A stretch of 64,000 nt of DNA, from NCBI RefSeq assembly GCF_000421845.1, contig NZ_ATXU01000009.1, forward strand, positions 62,001-126,000. The letters run 5' to 3'. Below are positions 7,574 to 49,450 of the stretch, one piece after another. A program made the position numbers and the translations under genes. Source of the stretch: Leucobacter chironomi DSM 19883. GTDB lineage: Bacteria > Actinomycetota > Actinomycetes > Actinomycetales > Microbacteriaceae. Each line of letters starts with the position of its first letter. The first letter of the stretch is position 1. The notes below the pieces were generated by a model. It had not been told where the DNA came from. It was given only the letters and a program-made list of their open reading frames with translations, and made no database searches.

Positions 7574-7591
7574 GGATCCCCTCTCGTCACT

Positions 7592-32888: not shown

Positions 32889-32903
32889 TCCACGGCTTCT
32901 CCT

Positions 32904-32935: not shown

Positions 32936-33043
32936 GCGTTTCCCGGCCCTCTCTCGCCTCGCCGGTCCGGTCGTCGGTCCGGCTCGCCACCGATGGCGTG
33001 CGGGTCGCGGAGAGCGCGGGGTGCGGGATCGGGGCGGATCCGC

Positions 33044-33174
33044 TAGACTTGTCTGGTTTGCGTCTTCGCGCGTCTCATGGCGCGCGCGACGCAGGCGGAC
33101 ACCGCACTCCGGACCGGCCGGGGAACGCGGGAGAGCACGCGCAACCGCGCGGGTTCGATCGAAAGGAAACAATC
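33044..33174 (+). promoter_or_regulatory. promoter and long leader of rplK-rplA
   Basis: TAGACT at 33044-33049 is a good -10 box, giving a leader of about 118 bases. Its first part folds as GCGTC-TTC-GCGCG ... CGCGC-GC-GACGC (about 33061-33093). In many bacteria L1 represses its own operon by binding a leader hairpin that mimics its rRNA site; whether this structure is such a site cannot be decided here. No clear -35 is seen. Confidence 0.55.
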
Positions 33175-33606
33175 ATGGCAAAGGCCAAGAAGGTTACCGG
33201 TCTGATCAAGCTTCAGATCGCAGCCGGCGCCGCCAACCCGGCACCCCCCGTGGGTCCCGCGCTGGGTCAGCACGGCGTCAACATCATGGAGTTCTGCAAG
33301 GCCTACAACGCGGCCACGGAATCCCAGCGCGGCAACATCGTGCCCGTCGAGATCACGGTCTACGAGGATCGCTCGTTCACCTTCGTGCTCAAGACCCCTC
33401 CGGCAGCCGAGCTGCTGAAGAAGGCGGCTGGCGTGCAGAAGGGCTCCGGCACCCCCCACACCGTCAAGGTGGCGAAGGTCACCGCCGAGCAGGTCCGCGC
33501 GATCGCCGAGCAGAAGCAGGCCGATCTCAACGCGAACGACCTCGATGCAGCATCGAAGATCATCGCCGGCACCGCCCGCTCCATGGGCATCACGGTCGAA
33601 GGCTAA
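33175..33606 (+). CDS. rplK: 50S ribosomal protein L11
   Basis: Protein of the GTPase-associated centre of the large subunit, 143 residues as usual. The N-terminal domain contains [21 protein letters not shown] and [13 protein letters not shown] with the flexible proline hinge; the C-terminal rRNA-binding domain includes [13 protein letters not shown] and [27 protein letters not shown] precedes the ATG. It is 12 bases before rplA. Confidence 0.97.
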
Positions 33607-33618
33607 GGGGTAGGACAC

Positions 33619-34308
33619 ATGGCACAGAAGTCGAAGGCGTACCGCGCCGCTGCCGAGAAGATTCAGGCAGACAAGTTCTACACTCCCGCCGAGGCCGTGG
33701 CCCTGGCGAAGGAGACCGGTTCCACCAAGACCGACTCGACCGTCGAGGTCGCCGTCAAGCTCGGTGTGGATCCCCGCAAGGCCGACCAGATGGTGCGCGG
33801 CACCGTCAACCTGCCCCACGGCACCGGCAAGACCGCGCGCGTCATCGTGTTCGCGGTGGGCGCTGCTGCTGAGGCAGCCATCGCCGCCGGCGCCGACGAG
33901 GTGGGCGGCGACGAGCTGATCGAGAAGGTGGCCGCAGGCTACACCGACTTCGATTCGGCAGTCGCGACCCCCGAGCTCATGGGCAAGGTCGGTCGTCTGG
34001 GCAAGGTGCTCGGCCCCCGTGGTCTGATGCCGAACCCCAAGACCGGCACCGTGACCCCCAACACGGCGAAGGCCGTCGAGGAGATCAAGGGCGGCAAGAT
34101 CGAGTTCCGCGTCGACAAGCACGCCAACGTGCACTTCATCGTCGGCAAGGCCTCGTTCTCGGCTGAGCAGCTCACCGACAACATCACCTCGGTGCTCGAG
34201 GAGATCTCGCGTCTCAAGCCGTCGTCGGCCAAGGGCAAGTACGTGCAGAAGGGCGCCGTTTCGACGACCTTCGGCCCGGGCATCCCGCTCGACGTCTCCG
34301 GCCTGTAA
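33619..34308 (+). CDS. rplA: 50S ribosomal protein L1
   Basis: Stalk-base protein of the large subunit, 229 residues. [15 protein letters not shown] starts the protein; [20 protein letters not shown], the signature [19 protein letters not shown] and the C-terminal [16 protein letters not shown] are all present. It also often acts as the translational repressor of the L11-L1 operon. A strong terminator follows directly. Confidence 0.97.
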
Positions 34309-34327
34309 GGCTTCGCCCTCGGGCTGC

Positions 34328-34366
34328 GCCGCCCCCGCTCTTCTCGGAGAGCGGGGGCGGCGTTTT
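34328..34366 (+). terminator. rho-independent terminator after rplA
   Basis: GCCGCCCCCGCTCT (34328-34341) pairs perfectly with AGAGCGGGGGCGGC (34348-34361) around TCTCGG and is followed by GTTTTCGTT. Confidence 0.9.
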
Positions 34367-34462: not shown

Positions 34463-35599
34463 ATGGCTGACGCGGCCGCGATCAGCCCCCCGCGCATCTC
34501 GGGCTTCAACTACGTTCAGCCGCTCGGTTCGGGCGGCTTTGCGCATGTGTACCAGTACGAGCAGAACATGCCGCGGCGCATGGTCGCCGTGAAAGTGCTC
34601 ACCGGCAGCGAGCGCGCCGGGGCGATCGTCGCTTCGAACGAGGAGCGGTCGGCCTTCGAGGCCGAGGCCGACGCGATGGCGCGGCTGTCGAGCCACCCCT
34701 CCATCGTGTCGATCTTCGCGGCGAGCATCTCGAGCGACGGGCACCCCTATATTGCGATGGAGTTCTGCCCGGAGTCGTTCCGGCACCGGTCCAACGGCAA
34801 CCCCATCCCGCTCGACGAGGTGCTCGATGCGGGGGTGCGCCTGGCGGGCGCCCTGGAGACCGCGCACCGCTCGGGGATCCTGCACCGCGACATCAAGCCC
34901 TCGAACGTGCTGCTCGCGACGACCGGCCGGCCGGTGCTGGCCGACTTCGGCATCGTGTCGCTGCGCGGCCAGATGCGCGGGGCGGGCACGAGCGAGGCGA
35001 TGTCGATCCCGTGGGCGGCGCCCGAGGTGATCGAACGCACCACGGCGGGCACTCCCGCGAGCGAGGTGTGGTCGCTCGCGGCCACGCTCTACACCTTCGC
35101 GGCGGGCCGCTCGCCGTTCTCGCGCGAGAGCGGCACGAAGGACACGCGCAAGGCGATGAGCGCGCGCATCGTGCGCGCCGCCTACACTCCCGTGCCCGGC
35201 GCGCAGGGGTACGAGGCCTTCGACGGGGTGATGGCGGCGGCGATGACGAAGCAGCCGGAGCGGCGCTTCGCCTCGATGCAGCAGTTCGGCGAGGCCCTGC
35301 AGCAGTTGCAGCGGCTGTACGGCTACGACGTGACGCCGCTCGATGTGGTGCGCCAGGAGTGGATGCCGCAGACCGCCCCGGCGGCGGGGGTGCGGGGACC
35401 GGTGGTCTCCAGCGTGCGGCCCGAGGGGCGTGCGAGTCGGCGTGCGGATCTCGAACGGGATCGCGCAGCGGCTGCCGGCCCCCGCAGTGCGCGCGGTGAG
35501 CGCGGCACGGTGCTGCGGCCGGTGCTGATCGGCGCGGGCTCGGCGGTGGGCGTGCTGCTGGTGGCGGTGGCGCTGTTCGCCCTGGTGGGCGGTCGCTGA
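34463..35599 (+). CDS. membrane-anchored serine/threonine protein kinase
   Basis: Hanks-type kinase of 378 residues with a complete catalytic set: glycine loop LGSGGFAHVY (21-30), Lys44 in VAVKVL, catalytic loop HRDIKPSN (141-148, Asp143), DFG at 161-163 and APE at 186-188. A disordered Arg/Ala-rich stretch leads to one C-terminal membrane helix (about 354-375) ending five residues from the C-terminus, so there is no extracellular sensor domain. It heads an eight-gene block with a phosphatase and an FHA protein, and its stop shares one base with the start of the giant protein gene (TGATG). It is probably the writer of a local phospho-threonine circuit. The ribosome site is weak. Confidence 0.92.
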   Translation: MADAAAISPPRISGFNYVQPLGSGGFAHVYQYEQNMPRRMVAVKVLTGSERAGAIVASNEERSAFEAEADAMARLSSHPSIVSIFAASISSDGHPYIAMEFCPESFRHRSNGNPIPLDEVLDAGVRLAGALETAHRSGILHRDIKPSNVLLATTGRPVLADFGIVSLRGQMRGAGTSEAMSIPWAAPEVIERTTAGTPASEVWSLAATLYTFAAGRSPFSRESGTKDTRKAMSARIVRAAYTPVPGAQGYEAFDGVMAAAMTKQPERRFASMQQFGEALQQLQRLYGYDVTPLDVVRQEWMPQTAPAAGVRGPVVSSVRPEGRASRRADLERDRAAAAGPRSARGERGTVLRPVLIGAGSAVGVLLVAVALFALVGGR

Positions 35600-38500
35600 T
35601 GGCACGCGGAGGCCGCTCGCCGGGCCGTCGATCGCGCCTGATCACCTGGATCTCTGGGGCCGCAGCGCTGGCGATGATCGCGACGATCGCGGTGGTGGCG
35701 GCGGGTTACGACGCCCGTGAGACTCCGCGCGAGGAACCCGCCGTGTGGGCGATGCGCGGCTCCGGCCAGTACGCGCGCGTGAACACGCTCACTGGCGAGA
35801 TCGACACGGTGCGCCGGGTCGACGATCCGAGCGGCGTGCTGCAGTCGGGATCGCGCGGCGCCGTGCTGAGTCACGGCGACGGCCGCATCTGGGGCATCGA
35901 TCCGACGATGCCGCGCGACCTCATCGAAGACGGCGGATCTGCGCAGCCGGAAGGCGAAGCCGAGACGGCGGCCTCGGCGCCGTCCGGCGAGGCGGCGGCG
36001 TCCCGCACCCCGGAGGGCACCCGCGATACGCTGGCATCGGGCGACGCGGTGCTCTTCCGCACGGCGGACGGGGACGTGTTCCTGTCGCGCTTCGGCGAGG
36101 GCGCCGAGCGCGGCCTCTCGGATCCGGTGTTGCTCGATCCGCTCGCCGACGTCGAGACGGAGGCCGAGGATCAGGAGCCGGGCGGCACGTCGGAGGAGAA
36201 CCCGGGCTTCTCGTCGAGCGCCGTCGCGCTCGATGAGCAGGGGCGGGCGTTGCTGTTCTCGGCGGAGACCCGCGAGCTGCGCTGGTACGACATCGAGCGC
36301 GAGCGCTTCACGCGAAGCGAGAAGGCTCCCGAGGGTGTGCCCGGTGAGGGCGTGCAGCTCGCGATCGTGGACGGCCGATGGGTGCTGTTCGACGCGGAGT
36401 CCGGTCGCCTCTGGTGGGAGGGAGCCGAGCGGCCGGTCGAGTTCGACGCCGGCGCCGGCGCGCTGCTGCAGGCGTCGAGCACGGACGGCGCCGAAGCGCT
36501 CGTGGCCGATGGATCCGGTCTCTGGGGCGTGACGGCGCAGCGCGCAGAACGCCTCGAAGAGGCCGACGGCGTCCCGGTGCAGCCGATCGAGTTGGCGGGC
36601 GTGCGCTATGCGGCGTGGCTGGGCCAGAACGGCGCGCGGCTGTGGTCGTCGGCGGAGGGCGCCGCGCCGCTCGAACTCGACGGGGCGGTGGACATGCCCG
36701 GGCAGCCGGACCCGGTGTTCCGCTCGAACGGCACGAGCGCGCTGCTCTCCGAGCAGGTCACGGGCATGATGTGGACGCTGCCGGAGGGCCGGCTGATCCC
36801 CGTCGAGCAGTGGTCGCTCGTCGACCCGCCGAAGGAGCGCAGCGGTGCGGTGGTCGTCGACGACGTCACCGAGCAGGAGCCGCCCGTGGCGGTCTCCGAC
36901 GAGTTCGGCGTGCGAGCCGGTGAGCCGGCGCCGCTGCCGGTGCTGCTCAACGACTTCGATCCGAACCGCAAGGACGTGCTCACGATCGTCTCGGAGGGGC
37001 TCGCGGCAGACCTGCCGGAGTCGTTCGGCACGGTCTCGATGATCACTGATGCGCAGTCGCTCGTGGTGCAGCCGAGCCCGGACGCGAAGGGCACGGCGAC
37101 GTTCAGCTACCGGGTCACCGACGGCGTGCTCACCTCGGAGCCCGCCACCGTCACCCTGACCGTCGTCGGCGACGACACGAACACCGCCCCCCAGTGGTGC
37201 CCGGTGCAGGGTTGCCAGCGGGCGTGGCCGAGCCCCGAGCTCGCGCCTGGGGGCACCCTGGTGCTGCCGATCCTGGAGGGCTGGGTCGACCCCGACGGCG
37301 ATCCGATGATGCTGGAATCCGCCGAGCCCGCGAACCCGGGCGACCCGGTGCGGGCCCTCGTCACCGCAGACGGCCGCCTGGCGCTGCGCCACACCGACCC
37401 CAACGCGCCCGACAGCGACGTGGCGGTGCGGGTGACGGTCGCCGACTCGCGCGGCGAGCGGACCGAGCGCGAACTGAGCGTGCAGATCCGCAGCAATGCG
37501 CAAGCGGAGATGGCCGCCATCGCCGCGACGGCCCAGGTGAATGCGCCGCTGGCGGTACGCCCGCTGTCGCGCATCGTGGGCGGCTCCGGATCATACGCCC
37601 TGGTCGACGCGAGCGTGCAGACGGGGTCGGCGACCGCGGCGGTCAACGCCGGGGCCGGCACGATCGAGGTCACGGCGAAGGAGCCGGGGGTGACCGTCAT
37701 CGCGCTGACGGCGCGCGACACGGGGACCGAGGCCGAGATCTCGGGCACGCTGCGCGTCACCGCGGTCGAGGCGCGGCCGAAGCTCGGTCTGCCGCCTCTG
37801 CGCGCCTTCGTGCGCCCCCTCGCCGACACCACCGTCGACGTGCTCGACGCTGTGCCCGGCGCGAACGGCCGCGCCCTCGTGGTGCGGGCCGCGAACGTGG
37901 TGGATGGCGAGCTGCGCGCCGACGTGATCGAGCACGCGCGGGTGCGGGTCTCCGGCAGCACCCCCGACGGCGCCCCCGGTCGCATCGGAGCGGCCGACGT
38001 GTCGGTGGCCGAGGGCGTCGACACCGCGGTGGGGCGTCTGACCGTCTTCCAGGTGCCGGACACCGGCTCGGTCGGTGCGATCGCCGTGGCCGACGCCGCG
38101 ACGGTGCGCGCGGGGGCGGTCGCCGACATCCCCGTGCTCGAGAACGATGTGGCGCCGCCCGGGCAGCGCCTCGTGCTGCACCCCGAGGTGGGCGGTTCCG
38201 GCGCGAAGGGCGAGCTCGCCTTCGCCTCCGGCAACACGCTGCGCTACCTCGCGCCGACCGAGCCCGGCACCTACACGCTCAGCTACACCACGTACAGCGC
38301 GAGCTCGCCCGAGGCGAGCGACGTGGGGCAGGTGCGGGTGACCGTGCTGCCGCGCGACGGCAACCGCGCCCCCCAGCCGCGCACGCTCACCGTCAGGCTC
38401 GCGCCCGGCGAGCGCGCCACCGCGCAGGTGCCGCTCTCCGGGGTCGACCCCGACGGCGACCGCGTGCGTCTGACCGGGGTGAGCGCGTCGGACGACGCTC

Positions 38501-41500
38501 AGGTCTCGGCGACGCTCTCGCCCCGCAGCTCGGCCGTGCAGGTGGAGGCGTCGAAGAAGGCCGAGCCGGGACTGCGCATGATGCAGTACGCCGTGCGCGA
38601 CGAGTTCGGCGGCACGGCCGAGGGTCGTCTGCGCGTGATCGTCACCGAGGCCGACCCCGCAGGCGGTGCGCCGATCACCTACAGCGACTACGTGCGTCTC
38701 GCGAAGGGGGCGGACGAGCCTGCTGTGGTGCGTCCCCTCGACAACGACATCGACCCCGCGAACGGCGAGCTCGAACTGCTCGAGGTGGTGCCCAACGTGC
38801 CGGGCGGCCGGGAGTCGCCGCAGTATCGCGCCCTGCTCGAACGCCTCGACACCTCGGAGCTCGACCAGGGCCGGGTTGCGGTGCGGGGCGGCGACGATCT
38901 CGGCACTGTCTCGTATCGGTACACGGTGCGCTCGTCGAAGAGCACGAGCACGGCCGACGGGCTGATCGTGGTGCAGGTGTCGGCGCGCGTGGGTCAGCAG
39001 GCGCCCACCGTGATGGACACCGTGCTTTCGGCGAGGGACCGCGCCGAGCTGGAGCGCGGCGGCGTCGACGTGGTCACCGACCGCGTCTACTGGGCGGCCG
39101 GCGATGCGCGCTCGCTGCAGATGACGGTGTGGGGCTCCGCGGCGGATCGCTTCTCCTCGAGAGGGAACCGGATCGTCGGCGAGTACCGCGCCGAGGGCGA
39201 CCTGGTGCCCTTCAAGCTCTCCGGGGTCGATCTCACCGGGCAGGAGGTCGAGTCGTTCGGCTTCCTGGTGGTGCCGCCCCTCGACGAGCTGCGGCTGACG
39301 CTCAAGCCCGGCCTCGCGCCCATCAGGGTCGACGAGGGCAAGTCCGTCGATGTGGCGCTCGCCGACGTCGTCGATCTCGCGGCGGGCGATGAGGCCGAGT
39401 TCAAGGTCGGGGCGTTCCCGACGCAGCGCGCCCAGGCGAGCTGCTCGGCGAAGGACGCGACGGGACTCAGCTATGCGGCGGGCAAAGAGCCCCCCTGGGT
39501 CGACACCTGCGTCGTCTCGGTGAAGCTCACCGAGCAGAGGGCGTGGACCCACCTCGCGCTGCCCGTCGAGATCGTGCCGAACTCGCCGGTCGCCGAGTTG
39601 GAGACGCTCACCCGCACGGTCGCGCCCGGCGCCTCTGAGACGATCAACCTGCTCGACATGGTGCGCTGGCAGGGCGGCCGCGAGGGCAAACCGGGCGATC
39701 TGAGGTTCAGCGTGAGCGGCGGCGGGGGCAGCTTCGAAGTGGTGCCCTCCGGCCAGCAGCTGAGCGTCACGGCCCGCGCGGATGCGGTGCCGGGCGGCCA
39801 GGACGCGCTGGTGGTCACGGTCTCGGGCGCCGGCGAGAGCCAGGCGCCGCTCACACTGCGCGTGGGCGAGGCCGCGAAGGACACTCCGCGCGGTGCCACC
39901 GTGCAGCTGAACTGCACGGTGGGGTCGAGCTGTCAGGCGGCGCTCATCGGCGCGCCGGGCGAGCACGATCCCTTCGCGGGCAAGAGCGGCGGCGGGCTGA
40001 AGCTGGAGGCCGTCTCGGGCGGATCGTGCGCCGTGGGAACGTTCCAGGCCACGGGGGGCTCGGTGACGGTCGACTGGCCGAACGGTGCGAAGGGCGCCGG
40101 CGGCAAGTGCACGGCATCGTTCACCGTGCGCGACGCTCAGAACCGCACCGGCGAGGGCGTCATCGAGCTCGACGCGCAGGGCGTGCCGCGCCCGCCGGCC
40201 GCGATCTCGGCGGTCTCCTACACCTCGAACTCGGTGACACTCCGGGTGACGCTCAGCGGCGAGGCCTCGCACCCTGCGACCGAGGGCGTGCGCCTGCGGA
40301 TGGACGGAGCGGGGCATCCGGCCAGTTGCAGCGGATCTGGCGCCTCCTACGACTGCGTGGTGAGCGGCCTCGCCAACGGCGAGAAGCACAGCTTCACCGC
40401 GGTGGCCTTCAACTCGGTGGGCGAATCGGAGCCGACCGCGAACGCCGCCCCGGCCTGGGCGTACGAGCGGCCCGAGCAGCCGCGGGTCGACGCGAAGCAG
40501 GTCTCGGCGGAGTCGCCGGACACCGGCACGGTGAGGCTGGATATCGCCGGCAAGGCGGGCACGAGCGGGTTCCGGATCGTGACGCCCGCCGGCACGACGA
40601 CTCTGAGCGGGCAGAGCGGCACCGCGAGGATCGCGAGCCTGCCCGTCGGCGGGGCCGAGATCTCGGTCGTGCCGCTGAGCGCGCACGAACCCCCGAGCGG
40701 CGACTCCGCGGAGGGGTCGAACTGGGTCGACACCGTGCCGGTGACGGGGCGGCCCATCGTCTCGATCACGGCGGGGAGCTCGGAGCAGGGCAGCAGCCAG
40801 GCGACGGTGATCGTGACCGTCGATTCGCGCGGCGCCCCCGAGGCGAGGTGGGGTGTGAGCACGGGCGGCGGCTGCAGCCCGAGCACCTCCGGCGACGGCG
40901 GCACGAAGTCCGTGACGGGCACGGCCTACCACCCGCTCGAGGTGACGGCCTGCGCCGAGAACAAGTGGGGGGCCGCCCTCACCACCGCCTCGGTGGTCGT
41001 CAACGTCGGCGGCACGCCTCCGCCGCCCGTGGTCGAGTCGGGGTACACGATCCGCACGACCCCCACGGTGTCAGGATCGGTCGCGAGCTACGACTTCGCC
41101 GCAGGCCCGACAGTGTCGGCGAACGCGGGCCACACCCTCGACTTCCGCGTGAACGGTGCGAGCGTCGGCGGCGCCTTCCCCGCGACGGTGACGGCCGGTT
41201 CCGCCTACAGCGTCGCGCAGTGCAAGAACGGGGTGTGCTCCGAGGCGGTCTCCATCACCGGCAATGCGCCCGGCCCCGTGACCGTCGATCTCAGCGGCTG
41301 CATTCCCTCCACCGCCACCACGGCGGAGCTGCGCGCCCGCATCTCCGAGCATGCTCGCTCCTCGGGCTTGCCGAGCTTCGATCACGCCGCCGGCACGCTC
41401 ACCGTGAACTGGATGGGGCCATACGAGAACCTCGGCATGCTGACTGCTTCGGTCTGCGCCGAGCCGGATCCGGAGCCGCCCCCGGGCCCCGAAAGCCCCT

Positions 41501-41502
41501 GA
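35599..41502 (+). CDS. giant membrane-anchored Ig-like/fibronectin-III repeat protein
   Basis: A 1967-residue protein with a short basic N-terminus and one membrane helix (about residues 14-36, ISGAAALAMIATIAVVAAGY), the rest outside the cell. Residues ~45-410 look like a beta-propeller-type region. A series of cadherin-like (tandem-95) repeats follows, marked by LLNDFDPN, VDPDGDPMMLES, VLENDVAPPG, VDPDGDRVRLTG and LDNDIDPANGELELL. A fibronectin-III-like domain (AISAVSYTSNSVTLRV, VSGLANGEKHSFTAVAFNS) and further beta domains end in a Pro-rich tail. There is no LPxTG or lectin motif. Acidic DxDxD loops suggest calcium binding. It is the largest product of the kinase-FHA locus and probably its surface effector or sensor. 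Confidence 0.85.
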   Translation: MARGGRSPGRRSRLITWISGAAALAMIATIAVVAAGYDARETPREEPAVWAMRGSGQYARVNTLTGEIDTVRRVDDPSGVLQSGSRGAVLSHGDGRIWGIDPTMPRDLIEDGGSAQPEGEAETAASAPSGEAAASRTPEGTRDTLASGDAVLFRTADGDVFLSRFGEGAERGLSDPVLLDPLADVETEAEDQEPGGTSEENPGFSSSAVALDEQGRALLFSAETRELRWYDIERERFTRSEKAPEGVPGEGVQLAIVDGRWVLFDAESGRLWWEGAERPVEFDAGAGALLQASSTDGAEALVADGSGLWGVTAQRAERLEEADGVPVQPIELAGVRYAAWLGQNGARLWSSAEGAAPLELDGAVDMPGQPDPVFRSNGTSALLSEQVTGMMWTLPEGRLIPVEQWSLVDPPKERSGAVVVDDVTEQEPPVAVSDEFGVRAGEPAPLPVLLNDFDPNRKDVLTIVSEGLAADLPESFGTVSMITDAQSLVVQPSPDAKGTATFSYRVTDGVLTSEPATVTLTVVGDDTNTAPQWCPVQGCQRAWPSPELAPGGTLVLPILEGWVDPDGDPMMLESAEPANPGDPVRALVTADGRLALRHTDPNAPDSDVAVRVTVADSRGERTERELSVQIRSNAQAEMAAIAATAQVNAPLAVRPLSRIVGGSGSYALVDASVQTGSATAAVNAGAGTIEVTAKEPGVTVIALTARDTGTEAEISGTLRVTAVEARPKLGLPPLRAFVRPLADTTVDVLDAVPGANGRALVVRAANVVDGELRADVIEHARVRVSGSTPDGAPGRIGAADVSVAEGVDTAVGRLTVFQVPDTGSVGAIAVADAATVRAGAVADIPVLENDVAPPGQRLVLHPEVGGSGAKGELAFASGNTLRYLAPTEPGTYTLSYTTYSASSPEASDVGQVRVTVLPRDGNRAPQPRTLTVRLAPGERATAQVPLSGVDPDGDRVRLTGVSASDDAQVSATLSPRSSAVQVEASKKAEPGLRMMQYAVRDEFGGTAEGRLRVIVTEADPAGGAPITYSDYVRLAKGADEPAVVRPLDNDIDPANGELELLEVVPNVPGGRESPQYRALLERLDTSELDQGRVAVRGGDDLGTVSYRYTVRSSKSTSTADGLIVVQVSARVGQQAPTVMDTVLSARDRAELERGGVDVVTDRVYWAAGDARSLQMTVWGSAADRFSSRGNRIVGEYRAEGDLVPFKLSGVDLTGQEVESFGFLVVPPLDELRLTLKPGLAPIRVDEGKSVDVALADVVDLAAGDEAEFKVGAFPTQRAQASCSAKDATGLSYAAGKEPPWVDTCVVSVKLTEQRAWTHLALPVEIVPNSPVAELETLTRTVAPGASETINLLDMVRWQGGREGKPGDLRFSVSGGGGSFEVVPSGQQLSVTARADAVPGGQDALVVTVSGAGESQAPLTLRVGEAAKDTPRGATVQLNCTVGSSCQAALIGAPGEHDPFAGKSGGGLKLEAVSGGSCAVGTFQATGGSVTVDWPNGAKGAGGKCTASFTVRDAQNRTGEGVIELDAQGVPRPPAAISAVSYTSNSVTLRVTLSGEASHPATEGVRLRMDGAGHPASCSGSGASYDCVVSGLANGEKHSFTAVAFNSVGESEPTANAAPAWAYERPEQPRVDAKQVSAESPDTGTVRLDIAGKAGTSGFRIVTPAGTTTLSGQSGTARIASLPVGGAEISVVPLSAHEPPSGDSAEGSNWVDTVPVTGRPIVSITAGSSEQGSSQATVIVTVDSRGAPEARWGVSTGGGCSPSTSGDGGTKSVTGTAYHPLEVTACAENKWGAALTTASVVVNVGGTPPPPVVESGYTIRTTPTVSGSVASYDFAAGPTVSANAGHTLDFRVNGASVGGAFPATVTAGSAYSVAQCKNGVCSEAVSITGNAPGPVTVDLSGCIPSTATTAELRARISEHARSSGLPSFDHAAGTLTVNWMGPYENLGMLTASVCAEPDPEPPPGPESP

Positions 41503-41579
41503 CCGCCGGCCGCTCACCGAGATCCACCTGCCGCACCGCCACCCGCGCCCGCCCCGTCCGCAACACGAAGGAACCCAAG

Positions 41580-42581
41580 ATGACACCTCAGCCGAACCTC
41601 GCGGCCGCCGCCACGATCGGCCCCATCACCGATGAGCGGGCCCGCTGGGCCAGCGACGCCGTGCGCACCGTCGCCGACGCCATCGAGGTGGCGATCCAGG
41701 GCAAGCGCCGCGTGATCGAGCTGGTCGTCGCCACCGCGATCGCGGGCGGGCACGTGCTGCTCGAGGACGTGCCGGGCACCGGCAAGACCGCTCTCGCCCG
41801 CGCGCTGGCGAAGACGATGCACGGCACCTCGTCGCGCATCCAGTTCACCCCCGATCTGCTGCCGGGCGACGTGACCGGCATCACGGTCTACGACCAGAAG
41901 CAGGGCATCTTCGAGTTCCACGCCGGGCCGATCTTCGCGAACGTGGTGCTGGCCGACGAGATCAACCGGGCGAGCCCGAAGACCCAGTCGGCGCTGCTCG
42001 AGGTGATGGAGGAGCACCAGGTCACGGTCGACGGTCAGACGCACCGCGTGGGCGACCCCTTCCTCGTGATCGCCACGCAGAACCCCGTCGAGCAGGCGGG
42101 CACCTACCGGCTGCCCGAGGCCCAGCTCGACCGCTTCATGATCAAGACCTCGATCGGCTACCCCGACGAGGCGGCCATGATGCGCATCCTGCAGCAGATC
42201 GCCGGCACCCCGGAGGTGCCGGCCGTGATGAACGTGGGCACGCTCTCCCAGCTGCAGCAGTTCTCGCGCGCCGTCTCGGTGAGCCCGCTCATCGCGTCCT
42301 ACGTCTCCGAGCTCGTCGAGGCCAGCCGTCGTGCCGGCGAGGTGCGTCTCGGCGCGAGCGTGCGCGGTGCGCTCTCGCTCGTGCGCATGGCGTCGGCGTG
42401 GGCGCTCGTCTCGGGTCGCCCCTACATCACGCCCGACGATGTGCGCGAGCTCGCCATCCCGGTGCTCGCCCACCGTCTCGTGCTCGAGCCCGAGGCCGAG
42501 TTCGAAGGGGTGACGGCCGAGGCCGTGATCGGCCGGATCCTCATCGACACCCCTGTGCCGCAGGAGAACGGCACGGCGTGA
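41580..42581 (+). CDS. MoxR family AAA ATPase
   Basis: AAA+ chaperone-like ATPase of 333 residues. Walker A is EDVPGTGKTALAR, Walker B NVVLADEINRASPKTQSALLE, sensor 1 VIATQNPVEQAGTYRLPEAQLDRF, and sensor 2 lies in the C-terminal helical lid (RLGASVRGALSLVRMA). MoxR proteins work with DUF58/VWA partners to activate or assemble other proteins; here the DUF58 gene follows with a GTGA overlap. AAGGAA precedes the ATG. It lies 77 bases after the giant surface protein gene and may be required for its assembly or activity. Confidence 0.93.
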   Translation: MTPQPNLAAAATIGPITDERARWASDAVRTVADAIEVAIQGKRRVIELVVATAIAGGHVLLEDVPGTGKTALARALAKTMHGTSSRIQFTPDLLPGDVTGITVYDQKQGIFEFHAGPIFANVVLADEINRASPKTQSALLEVMEEHQVTVDGQTHRVGDPFLVIATQNPVEQAGTYRLPEAQLDRFMIKTSIGYPDEAAMMRILQQIAGTPEVPAVMNVGTLSQLQQFSRAVSVSPLIASYVSELVEASRRAGEVRLGASVRGALSLVRMASAWALVSGRPYITPDDVRELAIPVLAHRLVLEPEAEFEGVTAEAVIGRILIDTPVPQENGTA

Positions 42582-43963
42582 GCGACGAGAGTACCCGGGG
42601 TCGCCTGTTCCGCACCGCGACGCGCGGGATGCGGCATACGCGGGGCACCCGGACGGCGTCGCGTCTCGGCGAGACGCGCACCTCGACGCGGGCGCTGGAT
42701 CCGGTGCAGCGGCGCCGTGTCGTCGCGCGCCGGTGGTGGCGGCGCACGCGCCGCCGGGCGGGCCGTGCCTGGCGGGGAGTGACGCAGGCCGTCACCCCGC
42801 TGGGCTGGTTCGTGCTCGCGCTGACGGCGAGCGGTGCGGTGCTGGGGGTCGCGTTCTCGTGGATCGAGGCGTGGTTCGCCGCGGTGGTGGGCGGGCTGCT
42901 GCTCGTCATCGCCGCCCCGTTCCTGGTGGGCAGCCGCGCCTATCGCGTGCGGCTCCTGCTCGACCGGCGCAGTGTCACGGTGGGCGGTGAGGTGCAGGTG
43001 CGGGTGATCGTCGAGAACGGCGGATCCCGGCCCGCGCTGCCCGCAGTGGCCGAGCTGCCCGTGGGACCGGCGCTGCGGGAGCTCACGGTGCCGTTCATCG
43101 GGCCGGGAGCCTCGGTGGAGCTGCCGGTGCGGGTGCCGGCTGCACGGCGGGGCGTAGTGCCGGTGGGGCCGCTCACCGTGGCCCGCCGCGACCCCGTCGG
43201 GCTGCTGCGGCGCGAGGTGACCTGGCCGGAGCGGCATCTCGTGCACGTGCATCCCGCGATCGCCGTGCTGCCGCCGAACTCCGCGGGGCTCGTGCGCGAT
43301 CTCGAGGGCACGTCGAGCCGACGGCTCACCGACTCAGACCTCTCGTTCTACGCGGTGCGCGAGTACGCCCGCGGCGACGCCATGCGGCACGTGCACTGGA
43401 AGTCGACGGCCAAGACGGGCACGCTCATGGTGCGGCAGTACGAGGAGTCGCAGACGGCCCGGGTCGCCGTGCTCTTCGATGCGATCCGCGAGGAATACCA
43501 GAACGACGACGAGTTCGAGCTGGCGGTGAGCGTCGCGGCGTCGATCTCGGTGCAGGCGGTGCGGGAGGGGCGGGAGCGCTTCGTCGCATCGGCGTGGGCG
43601 CCGGGCCGGGTTCGGCCCAGCATCGATGGTCTCGAGGAGCTGCCGTCGCGCGACCCGCAGCAGCTGCTCGACGCGTGGGCGGAGCTGGAGGCGGCGCCCG
43701 ACGGGGTGCCGTTCGAAGCGCTCGCCCGAGGGCTCGCGCAGTCCCGTCGCCCGCTGTCGATCGTGGCGATCGTGACGGGGTCCGGCGCCGATCTCGCGCG
43801 GATCCGTCGGGCTGCCGTCGCGTTCGCCCCCGACGTGCAGGTGCTCGCGGTGCGCTGCGATCTGCACGCCGAGCCGCGCGCGCAGCGCATCGATCCGCTC
43901 ACCGTGTTCACCGTCGGCGCCCTCGGTGATCTGCCCCAGCTGATGGTCAGGGGTGCGCGGTGA
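42578..43963 (+). CDS. DUF58 domain-containing membrane protein
   Basis: A 461-residue partner of MoxR. The first ~70 residues are extremely Arg-rich and cytoplasmic; two membrane helices follow (LGWFVLALTASGAVLGVAF and AWFAAVVGGLLLVIAAPFLV). Then come an Ig-like beta region (VTVGGEVQVRVIVENGG ... GVVPVGPLTVARRDPVGL) and the DUF58 core FYAVREYARGDAMRHVHWKSTAKTG with the invariant RxYxxGDxxRxIxWK pattern, inside a VWA-like fold. GTG 42578 overlaps the moxR stop by 4 bases, and its own stop overlaps the next gene in the same way, so stoichiometric expression is likely. Confidence 0.9.
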   Translation: MSDESTRGRLFRTATRGMRHTRGTRTASRLGETRTSTRALDPVQRRRVVARRWWRRTRRRAGRAWRGVTQAVTPLGWFVLALTASGAVLGVAFSWIEAWFAAVVGGLLLVIAAPFLVGSRAYRVRLLLDRRSVTVGGEVQVRVIVENGGSRPALPAVAELPVGPALRELTVPFIGPGASVELPVRVPAARRGVVPVGPLTVARRDPVGLLRREVTWPERHLVHVHPAIAVLPPNSAGLVRDLEGTSSRRLTDSDLSFYAVREYARGDAMRHVHWKSTAKTGTLMVRQYEESQTARVAVLFDAIREEYQNDDEFELAVSVAASISVQAVREGRERFVASAWAPGRVRPSIDGLEELPSRDPQQLLDAWAELEAAPDGVPFEALARGLAQSRRPLSIVAIVTGSGADLARIRRAAVAFAPDVQVLAVRCDLHAEPRAQRIDPLTVFTVGALGDLPQLMVRGAR

Positions 43964-46407
43964 CGGCGGATCGCGCGGCGGTCCGAGCCGTCTGGGGCGC
44001 GCTGGCCGCCGCGCTGGCTCTCGCGCTCGGAGTGTGGGCGGCTTGGCCGATCTACCGCACGCCCTGGCTGTGGGCGGTGGCGGCCGCGGCGCTGATCCTC
44101 GGCACCGGGATCGCGTGGCTGCGGGAGCGGCTGCGCTGGGGTGCGGTGGTGCTCGCCGCGGTGGCGCTGGGCGTCTTCGCGCTCACGGTCGTGCCGGTCG
44201 CGGTGCCGGAGGCGATGCCGGGGGCGCACGGCGGCGGTCTGCTGCGGGGCCTGCTCGACGGTCTCGCGGCCGTCGCGCTGGGCTGGAAGCAGCTGCTCAC
44301 GCTGACCCTGCCCGTCGGCAGCTATCGCACGGTGCTCGTGCCCGCCTATGTGGTCTTCCTGCTCACGGCGCTGCTCGTGGGGATCCTCGCCCGGCGCAGT
44401 GCTCGCGCGGCGGTCTTCGCCGCCGCCCCGATGCTCGCGCCGGTCGCCTTCGGTACCGTCTTCGGGGCGTCGCAGCTGAGCGCACCGCTGCACCTCGGGG
44501 CGTTCACGGTCGTCGCGCCCCGCGAGATCGGCCTGTGGCTGGCCGCGGCGACGGTCGCCGCGATCTGGGTGGCGCTGGTCTCGGGCGAGGAGCGCCGGGC
44601 GGCGCTCAGGCTCGGTCGCGCCGCCGACGGTGCGGTGCGCAGCCGGGGCGGGGCGCTGCGCCCCCTCGTCGGGGGCGGCATCGTGGTGCTCGCCCTCTTC
44701 GCCGGCGGTGCGCTCGCGCCCGTGCTCGACGCCGACGCTCGCGCGGTGCCGCGCGACCGCATCGATCCCGAGCTGGTGGTGCGCGAGCGCCCGAGCCCGC
44801 TGGCCGACTACCGCAGCTCGAAGCGCGACGACGCCCTCGACGCCCCGCTCTTCTCGGTGTCGTCTTCGGGGGCGCTGCCGGAGCGGCTGCGCCTCGCCGT
44901 GCTCGACGCCTACGACGGCGTCGACTTCCACGTGGGCGAGGCCGCGGCGGGCCGCTTCACCCGGTTCCCGAGCGGGGCCGGCGTGACCGACCCCGCCCGG
45001 GTCTCGGTGCGCGTCGAGGAGGGCTACTCGGACATCTGGGCGCCCACGGCCCCGCTCGGCAGCCCGCCGGTGTTCGCGGGCCCGCGCGCCGATGCGCTCG
45101 CGGATGCCTTCTACGTGAACCGCGAGACGGGCGGCGCGATCGCCGTGCCGGGTGCCGGCGCATCCTCCGCCGGGCTCGCCGCGGGCGACGGCTACACGGC
45201 CGAGATGCAGACCTCCGCAGACCCGGGCCTCGATCGCATCGGCGAGCCCGGCGCCCCGCGCTTCGACGTCGAGACCGCGCCGGAGCTCGGGGCGTGGATC
45301 GATCGCCAGCAGCAGCCGGGCGACGCCGCAGGCCTCGCCGAGCTCATCGAGCGGCTGCGCCAGCGCGGCTACCTCAGCCACTCGATGAGCGACACCGAGG
45401 GCGAGCGCCTGTGGCTGGAGCGGCTGGGCGAGCGGTACGGCACCGTCTTCGAGTCGAGCGCCGGCGGGCACTCCCTGTCCCGCATCGAGCGGCTCTTCGA
45501 GCAGCTCAACACCCAGCAGTCCGCCGCGGGGGAGTCGGCTTCGACGGCGCAGCTCGTCGCGGGGGTCGGCGACGACGAGCAGTTCGCGACGGCTGCGGCG
45601 CTCATCGCGCGCGCACTCGGCTACGACGCGCGGGTGGTGGTCGGGGTGCGCCTCGGCGATGCGGATCGCGGCGTCGACGGCGTCCCCGCCTGCGAGGCCG
45701 AGTGCACGGGCGAGCATCTCGCGGCCTGGATCGAGGTGCGCGGCGACCGCGGCGAGTGGGTGCCGTTCGACGTGACCCCGCAGCTCGAGCAGCGCCCCGA
45801 GCGTCTGGAGCAGGGCGAGCAGCTGCCCGAGTTCCCGACGACGCCGGAGGAGCGCGACGCTCGGGAGGCGGATCCGCCGGTGGGTCTCGGGGATCAGGGC
45901 GAGAGCGACGATCCCGACGACCCCGCCCGGGGCGAGTCGGCGCTGTGGCCCGTGGTGCGCGCCGTGGGGCTGTCTCTCGCGGCCCTGCTGCTGCTCGCGG
46001 CCCCGCTGCTGTTCCTGCCCCTCGCGAAGCGGGTGCGGGCGCGTCGCCGGCGCACGGAGCGGGTGCCCGAGTTGCGCGCACTCGGCGCCTGGGCGGAGAT
46101 GCTGGATCGCGCTCGCGACGCCGGCGTGCCGGTGCCGGCGAACGCGGCTCGCAGCGAGGTCGCGGCGGTGCTGGGCACGGCGCCCGCGCGGTGGGCCGCC
46201 GCTCAGGCGGATCGCGCGGTGTTCTCGCCGATCGGCATCGACCCCGGTACCGTCGAGCAGCTGTGGGCGGCGGCGGACGCCGACCGGGCGGAACGGACGG
46301 CGGGGATGACCGTGTTCGCCAGGCTGCGCGCGGCGTACTCGCTGCGCTCGTACGGAATCGGAGCGGGGCAGCGCAGCGCGGCGCCCCGGGGAAGCGAGCA
46401 GGGATGA
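43960..46407 (+). CDS. transglutaminase-like membrane protein (TgpA type) lacking the catalytic cysteine
   Basis: An 815-residue protein with about seven N-terminal membrane helices, a large extracellular transglutaminase-like domain and one C-terminal helix (VRAVGLSLAALLLLAAPLLFLP) before a cytoplasmic tail. This is the TgpA architecture that accompanies MoxR and DUF58. The fold segment GDDEQFATAAALIARALGYD matches the usual G-x-C-E-x-F-A active-site helix, but Asp539 stands where the nucleophilic Cys belongs. The other triad members, His586 (GEHLAAWIEV) and Asp604 (VPFDVTP), remain. It is therefore probably a non-enzymatic scaffold or binding domain. Overlaps of 4 bases link it to both neighbours. 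Confidence 0.85.
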   Translation: MTADRAAVRAVWGALAAALALALGVWAAWPIYRTPWLWAVAAAALILGTGIAWLRERLRWGAVVLAAVALGVFALTVVPVAVPEAMPGAHGGGLLRGLLDGLAAVALGWKQLLTLTLPVGSYRTVLVPAYVVFLLTALLVGILARRSARAAVFAAAPMLAPVAFGTVFGASQLSAPLHLGAFTVVAPREIGLWLAAATVAAIWVALVSGEERRAALRLGRAADGAVRSRGGALRPLVGGGIVVLALFAGGALAPVLDADARAVPRDRIDPELVVRERPSPLADYRSSKRDDALDAPLFSVSSSGALPERLRLAVLDAYDGVDFHVGEAAAGRFTRFPSGAGVTDPARVSVRVEEGYSDIWAPTAPLGSPPVFAGPRADALADAFYVNRETGGAIAVPGAGASSAGLAAGDGYTAEMQTSADPGLDRIGEPGAPRFDVETAPELGAWIDRQQQPGDAAGLAELIERLRQRGYLSHSMSDTEGERLWLERLGERYGTVFESSAGGHSLSRIERLFEQLNTQQSAAGESASTAQLVAGVGDDEQFATAAALIARALGYDARVVVGVRLGDADRGVDGVPACEAECTGEHLAAWIEVRGDRGEWVPFDVTPQLEQRPERLEQGEQLPEFPTTPEERDAREADPPVGLGDQGESDDPDDPARGESALWPVVRAVGLSLAALLLLAAPLLFLPLAKRVRARRRRTERVPELRALGAWAEMLDRARDAGVPVPANAARSEVAAVLGTAPARWAAAQADRAVFSPIGIDPGTVEQLWAAADADRAERTAGMTVFARLRAAYSLRSYGIGAGQRSAAPRGSEQG

Positions 46408-47258
46408 GCGGGGCGCCGAACGCGCGGGCCGAGGGGCGACCCCCGGTGATCGAGGCTGCGATGAGCACGGACACCGGCCTGCGCCGCGCCGTCAACGAGG
46501 ATCTGGCGCTCGCGCAGGAGCCGGTGTTCGTGGTGGCCGACGGCATGGGCGGTCACTCGGCCGGAGACCTTGCGAGCGCCGCCGCGATCGGCGCCTTCGC
46601 CGAGCTGGCACGGCTCGGAGGCACCCGGCGGTTGGCGATCGCCGACGTGGATGCGGCGCTCGAGGCGGCCCGCCGCGCGGTCGATGTGATCTCGCAGGAG
46701 GCCGAGCGCGGAGCGGGCTGCACCCTGACGGGCGCCGTGCTCGTGGAGCACGACGGGGAGCCGTACTGGTACGTGATCAACGTGGGCGATTCGCGGGTCT
46801 ACCAGCACCGGGGCGGCAGCCTCGCCCAGATCACCGCGGATCACTCGCTGTACGCCGAGCTCACGGCGGCGGGGCACGCCGACGCGGCGACCGCGCCGCG
46901 CAACGTGATCACGAGGGCGCTCGGCTCGGATGACGCCCGCCACGACGGCTGGCTGCTGCCCCCGCGCACCGGCCTGCGCCTGCTGATCTGCTCGGACGGG
47001 CTCACTTCCGAGCTCGCCGATGAGGAGCTGCGAGCCGTGCTCACGGAGGGCGGCCGGGTCGGCGCGGTGGCCGAGGATCTGGTGCGCCGGGCCTGCGCGG
47101 CCGGCGGCCGCGACAACGTGACCGTGGTAGTGGTGGACACGATCTCGGACGGGCGCTCGCCGGGGCCGGCGGAGGAGCCGCTGCCGCAGCCCGAGGACAC
47201 GGACGACGACGAGGTGGACGAGAACACGCTCGAGGTGACGAGGCCGGTGACGGAATGA
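46404..47258 (+). CDS. PP2C-type serine/threonine protein phosphatase
   Basis: Metal-dependent phosphatase of 284 residues, expected to reverse the action of the kinase at 34463. Motifs in order: TGLRRAVNEDL, VFVVADGMGGHSAGD (metal-binding Asp and Gly), INVGDSRVYQHR, LLICSDGLTSEL and GGRDNVTVVVV, with all metal-ligand aspartates kept. The last 35 residues are acidic and disordered and include threonines near the end (ENTLEVTRPVTE). There is no membrane helix. It overlaps the transglutaminase-like gene and the next gene by ATGA on both sides. Confidence 0.93.
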   Translation: MSGAPNARAEGRPPVIEAAMSTDTGLRRAVNEDLALAQEPVFVVADGMGGHSAGDLASAAAIGAFAELARLGGTRRLAIADVDAALEAARRAVDVISQEAERGAGCTLTGAVLVEHDGEPYWYVINVGDSRVYQHRGGSLAQITADHSLYAELTAAGHADAATAPRNVITRALGSDDARHDGWLLPPRTGLRLLICSDGLTSELADEELRAVLTEGGRVGAVAEDLVRRACAAGGRDNVTVVVVDTISDGRSPGPAEEPLPQPEDTDDDEVDENTLEVTRPVTE

Positions 47259-47821
47259 CGGACGAGACTGAGCGCGCCGACGGCACGATCGACGCCGACG
47301 ACACCCTCTCGGTGCCGCGGAGCGGGGGACTGGGCGGGCCCGGGGCTGCTGCGGGCGTTGGCGCCGAGCCGGATGATGCGACGGTGGTGGTGCGGCGTGC
47401 GGCTGCGGCCGAGCCGGATGATGCGACGGTGGTGGTGCGGCGTGCGGCTGCGGCCGAGCCGGATGATGCGACGGTGGTCGTGCCGCGCCGCCGCGACCCG
47501 CGTCCACCTGCACCTGCAGCTGCACCCGTGCCCGTGCCCGAGGAGGACGCGGCGCGTCCGTGGAACGGCGTCGCTCTGACACGGGTGTACGGTCCGCGCA
47601 GTGCCCGGCATCGGGCCGAGCGGGCGGGCATCGACGAGGTGCAGCAGCGCGTCGGCGCTCCTCCCGGGGCCGGGGCCGACGCGCTGCCCGAACGCGCCCT
47701 CCTGCCGTCCCTCGCCCGACGCGCGCGCCGATCCCGCATCGTCACGCTCTCCGCCTACGCCGCGACGGTCGCGCTGTCGCTGCTCGGCCTGTGGGGGGTG
47801 GCCCGCCTGGCGTTCGGCTGA
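47255..47821 (+). CDS. small membrane protein with three 15-residue threonine repeats
   Basis: A 188-residue protein I do not recognise from a named family. The cytoplasmic N-terminal half carries three near-identical copies of AEPDDATVVVRRAAA (about residues 37-77), each with one threonine in an acidic-then-hydrophobic-then-basic setting. A Pro-rich linker, a basic region (RSARHRAERAG ... LARRARRSR) and a single membrane helix at the C-terminus (IVTLSAYAATVALSLLGLW) follow. The same kind of motif, LDRTIVVPR, precedes the FHA domain of the next protein. I infer that the repeats are kinase sites recognised by the FHA reader. Coupled to PP2C by ATGA. Confidence 0.7.
   Translation: MTDETERADGTIDADDTLSVPRSGGLGGPGAAAGVGAEPDDATVVVRRAAAAEPDDATVVVRRAAAAEPDDATVVVPRRRDPRPPAPAAAPVPVPEEDAARPWNGVALTRVYGPRSARHRAERAGIDEVQQRVGAPPGAGADALPERALLPSLARRARRSRIVTLSAYAATVALSLLGLWGVARLAFG
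47366..47485 (+). repeat. 45-bp in-frame tandem repeat
   Basis: The word GAGCCGGATGATGCGACGGT recurs at 47366, 47411 and 47456, a 45-base period. The first two units are identical at DNA level; the third diverges after GTGGTCGTG. Each unit encodes one DDATVVV threonine site, so copy number sets the number of putative phosphosites. Confidence 0.9.
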
Positions 47822-47932
47822 GCCCGCGCGAGCCCGTCGCGGGCGGGCGCGGACCTTTGCGTCGCGGCACGGCCACGGATATCGTTGTGCAGAGCTGATG
47901 CCGCAACTCTCGCGTCCGGAAAGCAGGAGCAC

Positions 47933-49450
47933 ATGCCCTCGACCACCCTGAGCCCCGACGTCCTCCCGGTCATCGGGACGACGTATGCGCCCGCTCCCCT
48001 CCTGGGGCCCGCGGTGCTGTTCGCGCTCGGCGTCTGGTCGCTCGTCGTCATCGGCTTCTACATCTGGTACCTGTGGTCGCTGTCGCGCCTGTTCCCGTTC
48101 ATCGGGCTGCCGTCGGGACACGGCTGGATCCCGGTCTGGAACCAGTGGCAGCTCGTGCAGCGGGGTGGCCTGCCCGGCTGGCTCGTGCTCCTCGGCTTCG
48201 TGCCGGGCCTCGGCATCGTGGTCTGGGTGGTCTCGGTGATCGCCATTCACCGCATCAACGTCGAGCACGGCAAGGGCGGCGGCTTCACCGTGCTGGGTGC
48301 GCTGCTGCCGCCGGTGTGGGCGATGCAGCTCGCCCGCTCGATCGAGGAGAACGGCGGCGGCTACGCGGCGATGCCGGTCGCAAGCGGCTCCTACGCCTCC
48401 CCGGCCGGGTATGCCCCGCATGGTGCGGTGCCGCAGGCGCCCGCCTATGCACCGCAGCCTCCGGCGCCGCAGCCTCCGGCGCAGCCGTGGCAGGCCCCCG
48501 ACGCGCCGCAGCCCCAGGCCGCGGCACCCGCCCCGGTCGCCCCCGCCGCCCCCGCCGAGCAGCCCGACGCCCTCGCGCGGCTGTTCGCCGAACCGCAGGA
48601 GCAGCCGCAGTCGGACGGCCAGCCGCTGCCCGGTAGCGAGTGGGGATTCAGCCGCACCACCGAGGGCGACTACCAACGGCTCGCGCAGGAGGGCTATCAG
48701 CAGCGCCCGGCGCCGACCCTCGGCGTCGAGGAGCCGGTGCGCCCCTTCGCGTGGCCCGGCATCGACGAGTCGAACCCTCCGCCCGCCCCGCCTGCGGCTC
48801 CGCCCGCCCCGCCGATGCCGCCGGTGTCCTCGGCCCTGCCCGCGCCTGCGATGCCGCCGGTGCCGCCCGCCGCCGCGCTGCCGTCGGTTCCCGCGCCGGT
48901 GGTCGCTCCCGCACCGCAGCCCCCGCAGCAGGAGTCGTTCACGACCCATCGCCCATCGATCTTCGACTCGAACTCCGCGTCGGCCCCCCACGCCGACACC
49001 GAGACGGCGCGCTCGCAGGCGGTAGCACCCGCTCCGGCGGCTCCCGAGGTCGTCGCGGCGGCGGCTGCGGAGGCCGGGCCCGCGCCCGATGACGCCGAGC
49101 TCGACCGCACCATCGTGGTGCCCCGCCCCTCCCGCTGGGGGCTCGAGCTGCCCGACGGCGACGTGCTCGAGCTGCGCGGCGACGACGTCGTGGTGGGGCG
49201 CAAGCCCGAGGCGAAGAACGGCAGCACGGTGCTGCAGATCGCCGATCCGACGCGCACGCTCTCGAAGTCGCACGCCCGCCTGCGCCGCGTCGACGGCTTG
49301 TGGACGATCGAAGATCTCGACTCCACCAACGGTGTCGCCCTCGTCGACGAACTGGGCGAGCAGGTGCCGCTCGAAGCCGGCCGAGAGAACCCGGTCACCG
49401 AGCGGCTCGTGCTCGGCACCCTCGAGGTGACGCTGCGCCGCGTCTCCTGA
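47933..49450 (+). CDS. FHA domain membrane protein with DUF5684-like N-terminus
   Basis: A 505-residue phosphothreonine reader. The N-terminal ~130 residues have three or so membrane helices with WIPVWNQWQLVQRGGLPGW between them, resembling the DUF5684 membrane module. A 240-residue Pro/Ala/Gln-rich linker follows, then the FHA domain at about 400-505: VVVGRKPEAKNGS, LSKSHARLRRVDG and LDSTNGVAL carry the Arg, Ser-x-x-His and Asn residues that bind phosphothreonine. Just before the domain, ELDRTIVVPRPSRWG looks like a kinase site similar to the repeats in the previous protein, permitting intramolecular switching. ATG 47933 has AGGAG upstream; a 111-base gap precedes it. Confidence 0.9.
   Translation: MPSTTLSPDVLPVIGTTYAPAPLLGPAVLFALGVWSLVVIGFYIWYLWSLSRLFPFIGLPSGHGWIPVWNQWQLVQRGGLPGWLVLLGFVPGLGIVVWVVSVIAIHRINVEHGKGGGFTVLGALLPPVWAMQLARSIEENGGGYAAMPVASGSYASPAGYAPHGAVPQAPAYAPQPPAPQPPAQPWQAPDAPQPQAAAPAPVAPAAPAEQPDALARLFAEPQEQPQSDGQPLPGSEWGFSRTTEGDYQRLAQEGYQQRPAPTLGVEEPVRPFAWPGIDESNPPPAPPAAPPAPPMPPVSSALPAPAMPPVPPAAALPSVPAPVVAPAPQPPQQESFTTHRPSIFDSNSASAPHADTETARSQAVAPAPAAPEVVAAAAAEAGPAPDDAELDRTIVVPRPSRWGLELPDGDVLELRGDDVVVGRKPEAKNGSTVLQIADPTRTLSKSHARLRRVDGLWTIEDLDSTNGVALVDELGEQVPLEAGRENPVTERLVLGTLEVTLRRVS

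Follow-up and report, generated by a model that had tools for sequence, protein, structure and literature searches.

What does a Ser/Thr kinase do in the company of a MoxR ATPase, a giant surface protein and an FHA protein? The question is raised by eight same-strand genes at positions 34463-49450 (+) of a 64,000-nucleotide stretch of Leucobacter chironomi DSM 19883 (contig NZ_ATXU01000009.1, positions 62,001 to 126,000, assembly GCF_000421845.1), the whole of which is called the window here. The genes encode, in order, a Ser/Thr kinase, a 1967-residue surface protein, MoxR, a DUF58 protein, a TgpA-like membrane protein, a PP2C phosphatase, a small tail-anchored protein (gene 7) and an FHA protein. 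All eight are present with the families given to them in an initial annotation made from the sequence alone, and Pfam supports these assignments (Table 1). The same annotation knew of no described function for the combination. This view has to be given up, as the same eight-position operon has been published as the PFNA operon of bifidobacteria. Homology and gene order make it nearly certain that the Leucobacter cluster is a PFNA-type operon. The kind of operon is, therefore, already known; what is new is the gene-7 variant, a much wider host range and a corrected 'Tgm' label.

In bifidobacteria, the published order of the PFNA operon is pkb2, fn3, aaa-atp (MoxR), duf58, tgm, prpC, a hypothetical gene and fha (PMC8430577; PMC6803598, PMC10688814). 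Only some bifidobacterial PFNA operons carry prpC, the PP2C gene, and fha. These papers describe the operon as restricted to bifidobacteria and consider that it probably senses the human immune system. The genome used for comparison (G286) was taken as Bifidobacterium longum on the strength of a primer and of the length of its giant protein. The B. longum primer of PMC4928817 matches 3 of the family's 189 genomes, namely G286 plus two others, and the giant protein of G286, at 1994 amino acids, equals the published length for B. longum GT15.

The eight positions and their order are identical in the two clusters, and BLAST pairs seven of the window proteins with B. longum homologues at matching positions. 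The seven are the kinase (38% identity, E 5e-61), the giant protein (24% over 1383 aligned columns, E 3e-42), MoxR (56%, E 1e-111), DUF58 (32%, E 1e-67), TgpA (27%, E 2e-33), PP2C (34%, E 6e-26) and FHA (35%, E 5e-7). The giant proteins are also alike in length. Gene 7 gave zero BLAST matches in the B. longum cluster, BLGT_RS02790 included. Four differences were observed. Gene 7 of B. longum encodes a 171-residue LRV_2 protein, whereas that of Leucobacter encodes a tail-anchored protein with a motif array. The FHA protein has 210 residues and no predicted transmembrane helix in B. longum, as against 505 residues and a membrane-bound form in Leucobacter. The kinase continues for 134 residues after its transmembrane helix in B. 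longum and for about 6 in Leucobacter. Lastly, the giant protein has two fn3 Pfam matches in B. longum and none in Leucobacter. The LRV_2 repeat protein at position 7 of B. longum (locus L213, 14632-15147 in operon orientation) is the one that the PFNA papers list as 'hypothetical'.

The spread of the operon was followed through 140 loci fetched by a TgpA match, 60 from a first set and 80 from a second. The first set was hand-picked from genomes with TgpA matches (113/198; 49/60), favouring strong matches and long contigs, and the second comprises the best 80 of at least 536 relatives among at least 593 stretches. Both sets presuppose a TgpA match and are skewed to Microbacteriaceae. Six near-duplicates occur among the loci, and counts were also made without them. 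The kinase, giant protein, MoxR, DUF58 and TgpA stand in this order in 118 of the 126 TgpA-chosen loci that have enough upstream DNA (112 of 120 after removal of near-duplicates), the loci missing it being L105-L110, L114 and L117. The initial annotation had named a random scatter of the genes among relatives as grounds for abandoning its proposal; this is not what was seen. In L105-L110, which belong to one family, the core is not preceded by the kinase, and PP2C is followed by a gene for a protein of 654-816 residues that does not resemble gene 7.

The cluster was found in Leucobacter, Mycetocola, Agromyces, Microbacterium, Leifsonia, Cryobacterium, Glaciihabitans and Demequina. The best TgpA-alignment matches listed are mostly Leucobacter records, 48-68% identical, and a TgpA match is present in 35 of 36 other genomes of the genus, the sole miss being a 72% complete genome. 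Beyond the taxonomic order, six loci were fetched; L245-L248 hold the giant protein, MoxR, DUF58 and TgpA together, and L249 and L250 have no giant-protein match. Among open-licence PMC papers, no literature on the operon outside bifidobacteria was found, except for a remark in PMC12067865 that a mycobacterial moxR operon resembles PFNA. That the operon occurs across many Microbacteriaceae, in Demequina and partly beyond the order suggests an envelope function that is older and independent of a host. The wider host range also gives easier organisms for its study.

The gene-7 protein has no Pfam, NCBIfam or PADLOC match. Its DDATVVV copies sit in the N-terminal part. When a sequence search was made with gene 7 alone, matches were found in only 4 of 198 genomes of the order, its own genome counted, and candidates were therefore chosen by position and a C-terminal transmembrane helix: the gene had to adjoin PP2C, TgpA or FHA, and its product had to carry the helix. 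A gene-7 profile was at first used as a preference among open reading frames; a rerun without it left picks and counts unchanged. Candidates were found in 98 of the 140 loci, the others being truncated, without the gene or outside the rule. The Bifidobacteriaceae loci L118-L123 gave no candidate under it.

A strict motif was defined as an acidic residue at most three positions before a threonine, [VILRFHM] at +1, [VILAMF] at +2 and an arginine within +3 to +6, summarised as acidic-T-[VR]-[VL]-x-x-R. The loose form omits the arginine requirement. In 89 non-redundant gene-7 proteins, 302 strict motifs were counted, against 17.4 ± 3.8 (maximum 28) in 300 residue shuffles; the rerun, with candidates taken by position and transmembrane helix alone, gave 302 against 17.5 expected. 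At least one strict motif is present in 77 of the 89 proteins and at least two in 69 (1.5 expected), and the largest array has up to ten copies. The density of strict motifs is 18 per 1000 residues in gene 7 and 0.12-0.91 in eight other protein segments. This tail-anchored motif array looks new relative to the published PFNA operons, as do four features described below: the motif beside the FHA domain, the lack of transglutaminase Cys and His, a kinase usually devoid of an ectodomain, and the propeller with which the giant protein starts.

A motif of the same kind is found in the FHA protein, directly upstream of its FHA domain. Among 113 loci with an FHA domain encoded downstream of TgpA, the loose form of this cis motif is present in 105, compared with 22.4 ± 4.1 (maximum 35) in shuffles, in a window running from 70 residues before to 25 after the start of the FHA segment. 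Some of these loose matches lie inside the FHA domain or are poor. A strict recount, reaching no further than residue 12 of the segment, gave 91 of 113 against 4.8 ± 2.1 (maximum 10). The kinase, phosphatase and FHA motifs for writing, erasing and reading such marks are intact, as the initial annotation had said, and are so in nearly all relatives. All 121 non-gapped rows keep the kinase residues K44, D143, N148 and DFG, and 119-120 of 120 rows keep the FHA binding residues (Gly-Arg, Ser, His, Asn-Gly); the phosphatase aspartates are given in Table 1. The motif common to the array and the FHA proteins turns a family-less orphan gene into a testable ligand hypothesis.

The initial annotation had proposed that threonine phosphorylation controls a MoxR-driven assembly that displays or senses through the giant protein. 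A central role of phosphorylation has gained support, because of the gene-7 arrays and the similar motif beside the FHA domain, whereas MoxR-driven display or sensing is a step that we infer. From the motif patterns, it is likely that the array is a substrate of the kinase and a ligand of the FHA domain. In the mechanism proposed, the tail-anchored kinase and the PP2C would set how far the threonine motifs of two membrane proteins are phosphorylated. The gene-7 protein would offer several motifs in a row, and the FHA protein one motif beside its own FHA domain. The phosphorylated array would recruit the FHA protein and cluster it at the membrane, and this binding would compete with binding of the FHA protein to its own motif, as in a GarA-like latch. 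The state of FHA and array would then gate the MoxR-DUF58-TgpA machine, which may assemble, display or remodel the giant propeller/Ig (immunoglobulin-like) surface protein.

GarA is known to bind its own phosphothreonine via its FHA domain (PMC5448819), and an archaeal FHA-vWA pair has been reported to interact (PMC6509490). Like the GarA/OdhI switches, the FHA protein carries an adjacent threonine motif onto which it could fold back if phosphorylated; in contrast to them, the Leucobacter protein is membrane-anchored and paired with a second protein bearing several motif copies. As a whole, a membrane phospho-threonine switch governing surface assembly by MoxR and a pseudo-transglutaminase (the TgpA-like protein) is a reading held with moderate confidence. 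Within it, the control of MoxR-driven surface assembly is tentative and rather more open to doubt. Bolder, and more doubtful again, is the suggestion of a conserved actinobacterial device for counting phospho-threonines. Here, copy number could vary through tandem DNA duplication, the competition of array and single latch would set how far the reader is clustered at the membrane, and the output would be a MoxR machine with a pseudo-transglutaminase at its centre, displaying the propeller/Ig protein, with the immune-sensing operon of bifidobacteria as one host-adapted branch.

Several observations weigh against the proposed switch. The motif pattern was written after the sequences had been seen. 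Ten of the 89 gene-7 proteins lack the loose motif and 12 the strict one, and in L190 and L203 there are repeats that fall outside the pattern, with Glu or a different residue at +1 or +2. The array-less proteins include a Leucobacter group that often has no PP2C match, and many Microbacterium loci show no PP2C match in the stretch searched. In B. longum, gene 7 is a different protein with no predicted transmembrane helix, and the array is therefore not universal to PFNA. The strict cis motif is absent from 22 of 113 FHA proteins, the bifidobacterial L119 among them. Array and cis motif are more similar within a locus (15.67) than in random pairings (12.47, standard deviation 0.47; 65 loci); a locus's own array is, nevertheless, no closer to its cis motif than are the arrays of its three nearest relatives (Wilcoxon p = 0.87). 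Locus-specific coevolution of array and cis motif is thus not supported beyond relatedness, and the shared pattern is to be taken as a lineage-wide code. Finally, the action of the switch on MoxR or on the giant protein is a link that we infer.

Two details of these sequences may be added. The FHA protein of B. longum has DWDSTVLSS at the cis position, a loose match. The Leucobacter loci with an array-less gene 7 are L080, L081, L084, L135, L137, L140, L142 and L143; among them L084, L137, L140, L142 and L143 are also without a PP2C match, and L084 and L143 are near-duplicates.

Could the operon hold two functional units instead of one? The MoxR-DUF58-TgpA-giant protein set would then be envelope machinery, and the kinase, PP2C, array and FHA would serve mainly other targets. 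Such a division would suit the six loci of one family (L105-L110) where the core is not preceded by the kinase, the loci in which PP2C and gene 7 are shifted or missing, and the eleven Pkb2 substrates reported outside the operon (PMC8430577). It would not suit the position of the kinase, which is first in 118 of 126 loci, nor the finding that Pkb2 of B. longum phosphorylates the PFNA MoxR (PMC8430577). Even outside the order, FHA and kinase genes lie near the core in L245 and L247. A division into two units is, on balance, unlikely.

Similarly improbable is that the array is not an FHA ligand at all. Its repeats would then be docking sites for the kinase or phosphatase, or would form an acidic, flexible spacer, and the only motif bound by the FHA protein would be its own. 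Gene 7 does adjoin PP2C in many loci, and the FHA cis motif is kept in some loci whose gene 7 has no motif, as in L080, L081 and L135. Against this stand the single pattern common to the array and the cis motifs, which is rare elsewhere in the cluster, and the Microbacterium loci that retain arrays without a PP2C match, such as L154, L159 and L163.

The function published for bifidobacteria is that of a host-immunity sensor, which assigns cytokine binding to the giant FN3 protein and the sensing of host signals to the kinase. In vitro, a C-terminal FN3 fragment of B. longum has been reported to bind TNF-alpha. Published work also gives FN3 a part in adhesion and describes positive selection in bifidobacterial PFNA genes. 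The operon core is, however, present in Leucobacter, Agromyces, Microbacterium, Leifsonia, Cryobacterium and Demequina, which are mainly environmental genera. The window giant protein has no Pfam fn3 match. The kinase of the window ends so soon after its predicted transmembrane helix that it has no ectodomain, and the tail past the helix is at most 15 residues long in 105 of 121 loci; it exceeds 80 residues in 12, all within the distant L111-L124. The ectodomain proposed as the sensor of Pkb2 is therefore not general. As an account of the operon at large, host-immunity sensing is very unlikely, and the cluster is probably a general envelope signalling system.

The TgpA-like protein is annotated as a transglutaminase in the PFNA papers. 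The Cys register was fixed by three ungapped residues ahead of the aligned block, together with the known catalytic Cys positions of TG2 and TgpA. At the catalytic Cys column, Cys occurs in 0 of 141 sequences, the residues found being D, S, E, A, Q or G; His occurs in 1 of 141 at its column, and Asp in 127 of 141. A G-D-x-E-Q motif replaces the Cys site, with Gly in 140 of 141 and the other residues invariant, bifidobacterial sequences included; B. longum itself has neither Cys nor His. TgpA of Pseudomonas aeruginosa (PDB 6g49) is likewise a membrane protein with an extracytoplasmic transglutaminase-like domain, but keeps its catalytic triad and is reported to be active (PMC3507681). In spite of the Pfam transglutaminase-like domain, the match to PDB 6g49 (E 4e-8; human TG2 is weak, E about 0.1) and the widely retained Asp, an active transglutaminase or protease is very unlikely and was rejected for want of the Cys and His, with the invariant D-x-E-Q in their stead. 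The ectodomain may instead serve as a binding domain. The missing residues correct the 'transglutaminase' label of the PFNA literature.

Table 1. Coordinates of the operon genes and of features within and beside them (window positions)
Feature	Position	Strand	Remarks
Intrinsic-terminator-like hairpin	34326..34363	+	17-pair stem, T-rich tail; 3' of rplA; divides operon from ribosomal genes
Ser/Thr kinase, 378 aa	34463..35599	+	Pkinase 4e-36; predicted C-terminal transmembrane helix 354-372
Giant surface protein, 1967 aa	35599..41502	+	N-terminal signal anchor, beta-propeller, Big_9 Ig-like repeats (4e-29), Ig/FN3-like C-terminal tandem
Beta-propeller, residues 39-425	35713..36873	+	AlphaFold2 mean pLDDT 91.1, 55 sequences
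Ig/FN3-like C-terminal region, residues 1545-1967	40231..41499	+	AlphaFold2 mean pLDDT 95.7, nearly all beta
MoxR AAA+ ATPase, 333 aa	41580..42581	+	AAA_3 5e-64
DUF58 protein, 461 aa	42578..43963	+	DUF58 7e-10; two predicted transmembrane helices
TgpA/Tgm-like membrane protein, 815 aa	43960..46407	+	Transglut_core 3e-11; eight predicted transmembrane helices; putative pseudo-transglutaminase ectodomain
GDDEQFA motif	45568..45588	+	D539 at catalytic-Cys position; D538, E540, Q541 invariant
AAWIE motif	45721..45735	+	A588 at catalytic-His position; W590, E592 invariant; register from PDB 6g49 alignment
PP2C-type phosphatase, 284 aa	46404..47258	+	PP2C_2 5e-10; D46, D198, D237 conserved in all non-gapped rows
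Small tail-anchored protein (gene 7), 188 aa	47255..47821	+	Three DDATVVV motifs; predicted C-terminal transmembrane helix 162-180
45-bp tandem repeat, 2.8 copies	47363..47487	+	Encodes threonine motif array (Thr 43, 58, 73)
FHA protein, 505 aa	47933..49450	+	N-terminal membrane part with DUF5684 (2e-9), proline-rich linker, C-terminal FHA domain (4e-6)
Cis motif DAELDRTIVVPR (Thr393)	49091..49126	+	Directly upstream of FHA domain; kind as in array

Through Foldseek, it was observed that the propeller of the giant protein matches, among others, BamB, an archaeal surface-layer propeller, YncE and NirF (E about 3e-8 to 2e-7). For the C-terminal region the best matches are Ig/FN3 tandems (E 6e-8 and weaker), with low whole-length TM-scores. 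In L075, a locus of the same genus, the giant-protein and DUF58 matches are broken across several frames at about 2766-11982 (operon orientation), which may be decay or sequencing error.

A MoxR ATPase, a partner and a propeller-bearing protein in one operon also recall the MoxR-vWA ternary systems (PMC7159879), and DUF58 has been linked to vWA proteins (PMC12067865). In those systems the vWA protein itself carries the propeller as a fusion, whereas in Leucobacter the propeller lies in the giant protein and the DUF58 protein has a DUF58 match only; with an architecture that differs in this way, the cluster was not taken as such a system. The bpMoxR profile scores far below AAA_3 on the window MoxR. 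A part in anti-phage defence was also set aside, the PADLOC matches amounting to no more than generic kinase models plus a single weak match for AAA.

The initial annotation had most gene junctions overlapping by 1-4 bases, and this holds for five of the seven (1, 4, 4, 4 and 4 bases), using the probable starts of MoxR (ATG 41580), DUF58 (GTG 42578) and FHA (ATG 47933). The other two junctions are gaps of 77 bp (giant protein/MoxR) and 111 bp (small protein/FHA). The overlaps suggest a single transcript. A sigma-70 consensus scan of two stretches, which is uninformative in a high-GC actinobacterium, gave no promoter for the operon.

In the genome as a whole, the cluster counted, profile searches gave one DUF58, four kinase, three PP2C_2 and six FHA matches. 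The cluster thus has a set of its own, and further members of these families lie elsewhere. At G000:C7:76772-84584, 8 kb hold two of the other kinases together with one PP2C_2 and two FHA matches, probably the standard PknA/PknB-PstP-FHA cluster.

Directly upstream of the operon, tRNA-Trp, nusG, rplK and rplA occupy 31630-34308, the three protein genes being assigned by Pfam. Of the 140 relative loci, 24 have ribosomal protein L1 in the stretch fetched. These are 19 of the 20 same-genus loci L065-L084 (the exception being L066), the Leucobacter records L130, L131, L138 and L140, two of which belong to the genomes that also gave L072 and L074, as well as L128, an actinomycete bin. The presence of L1 near the cluster in the same-genus loci means that its chromosomal place is conserved within the genus. 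On the 3' side, a sodium:solute symporter gene (49455-50951, -) and a fused proline dehydrogenase/aldehyde dehydrogenase gene (51095-54823, -) converge on the operon, and the pair likely serves proline uptake and breakdown.

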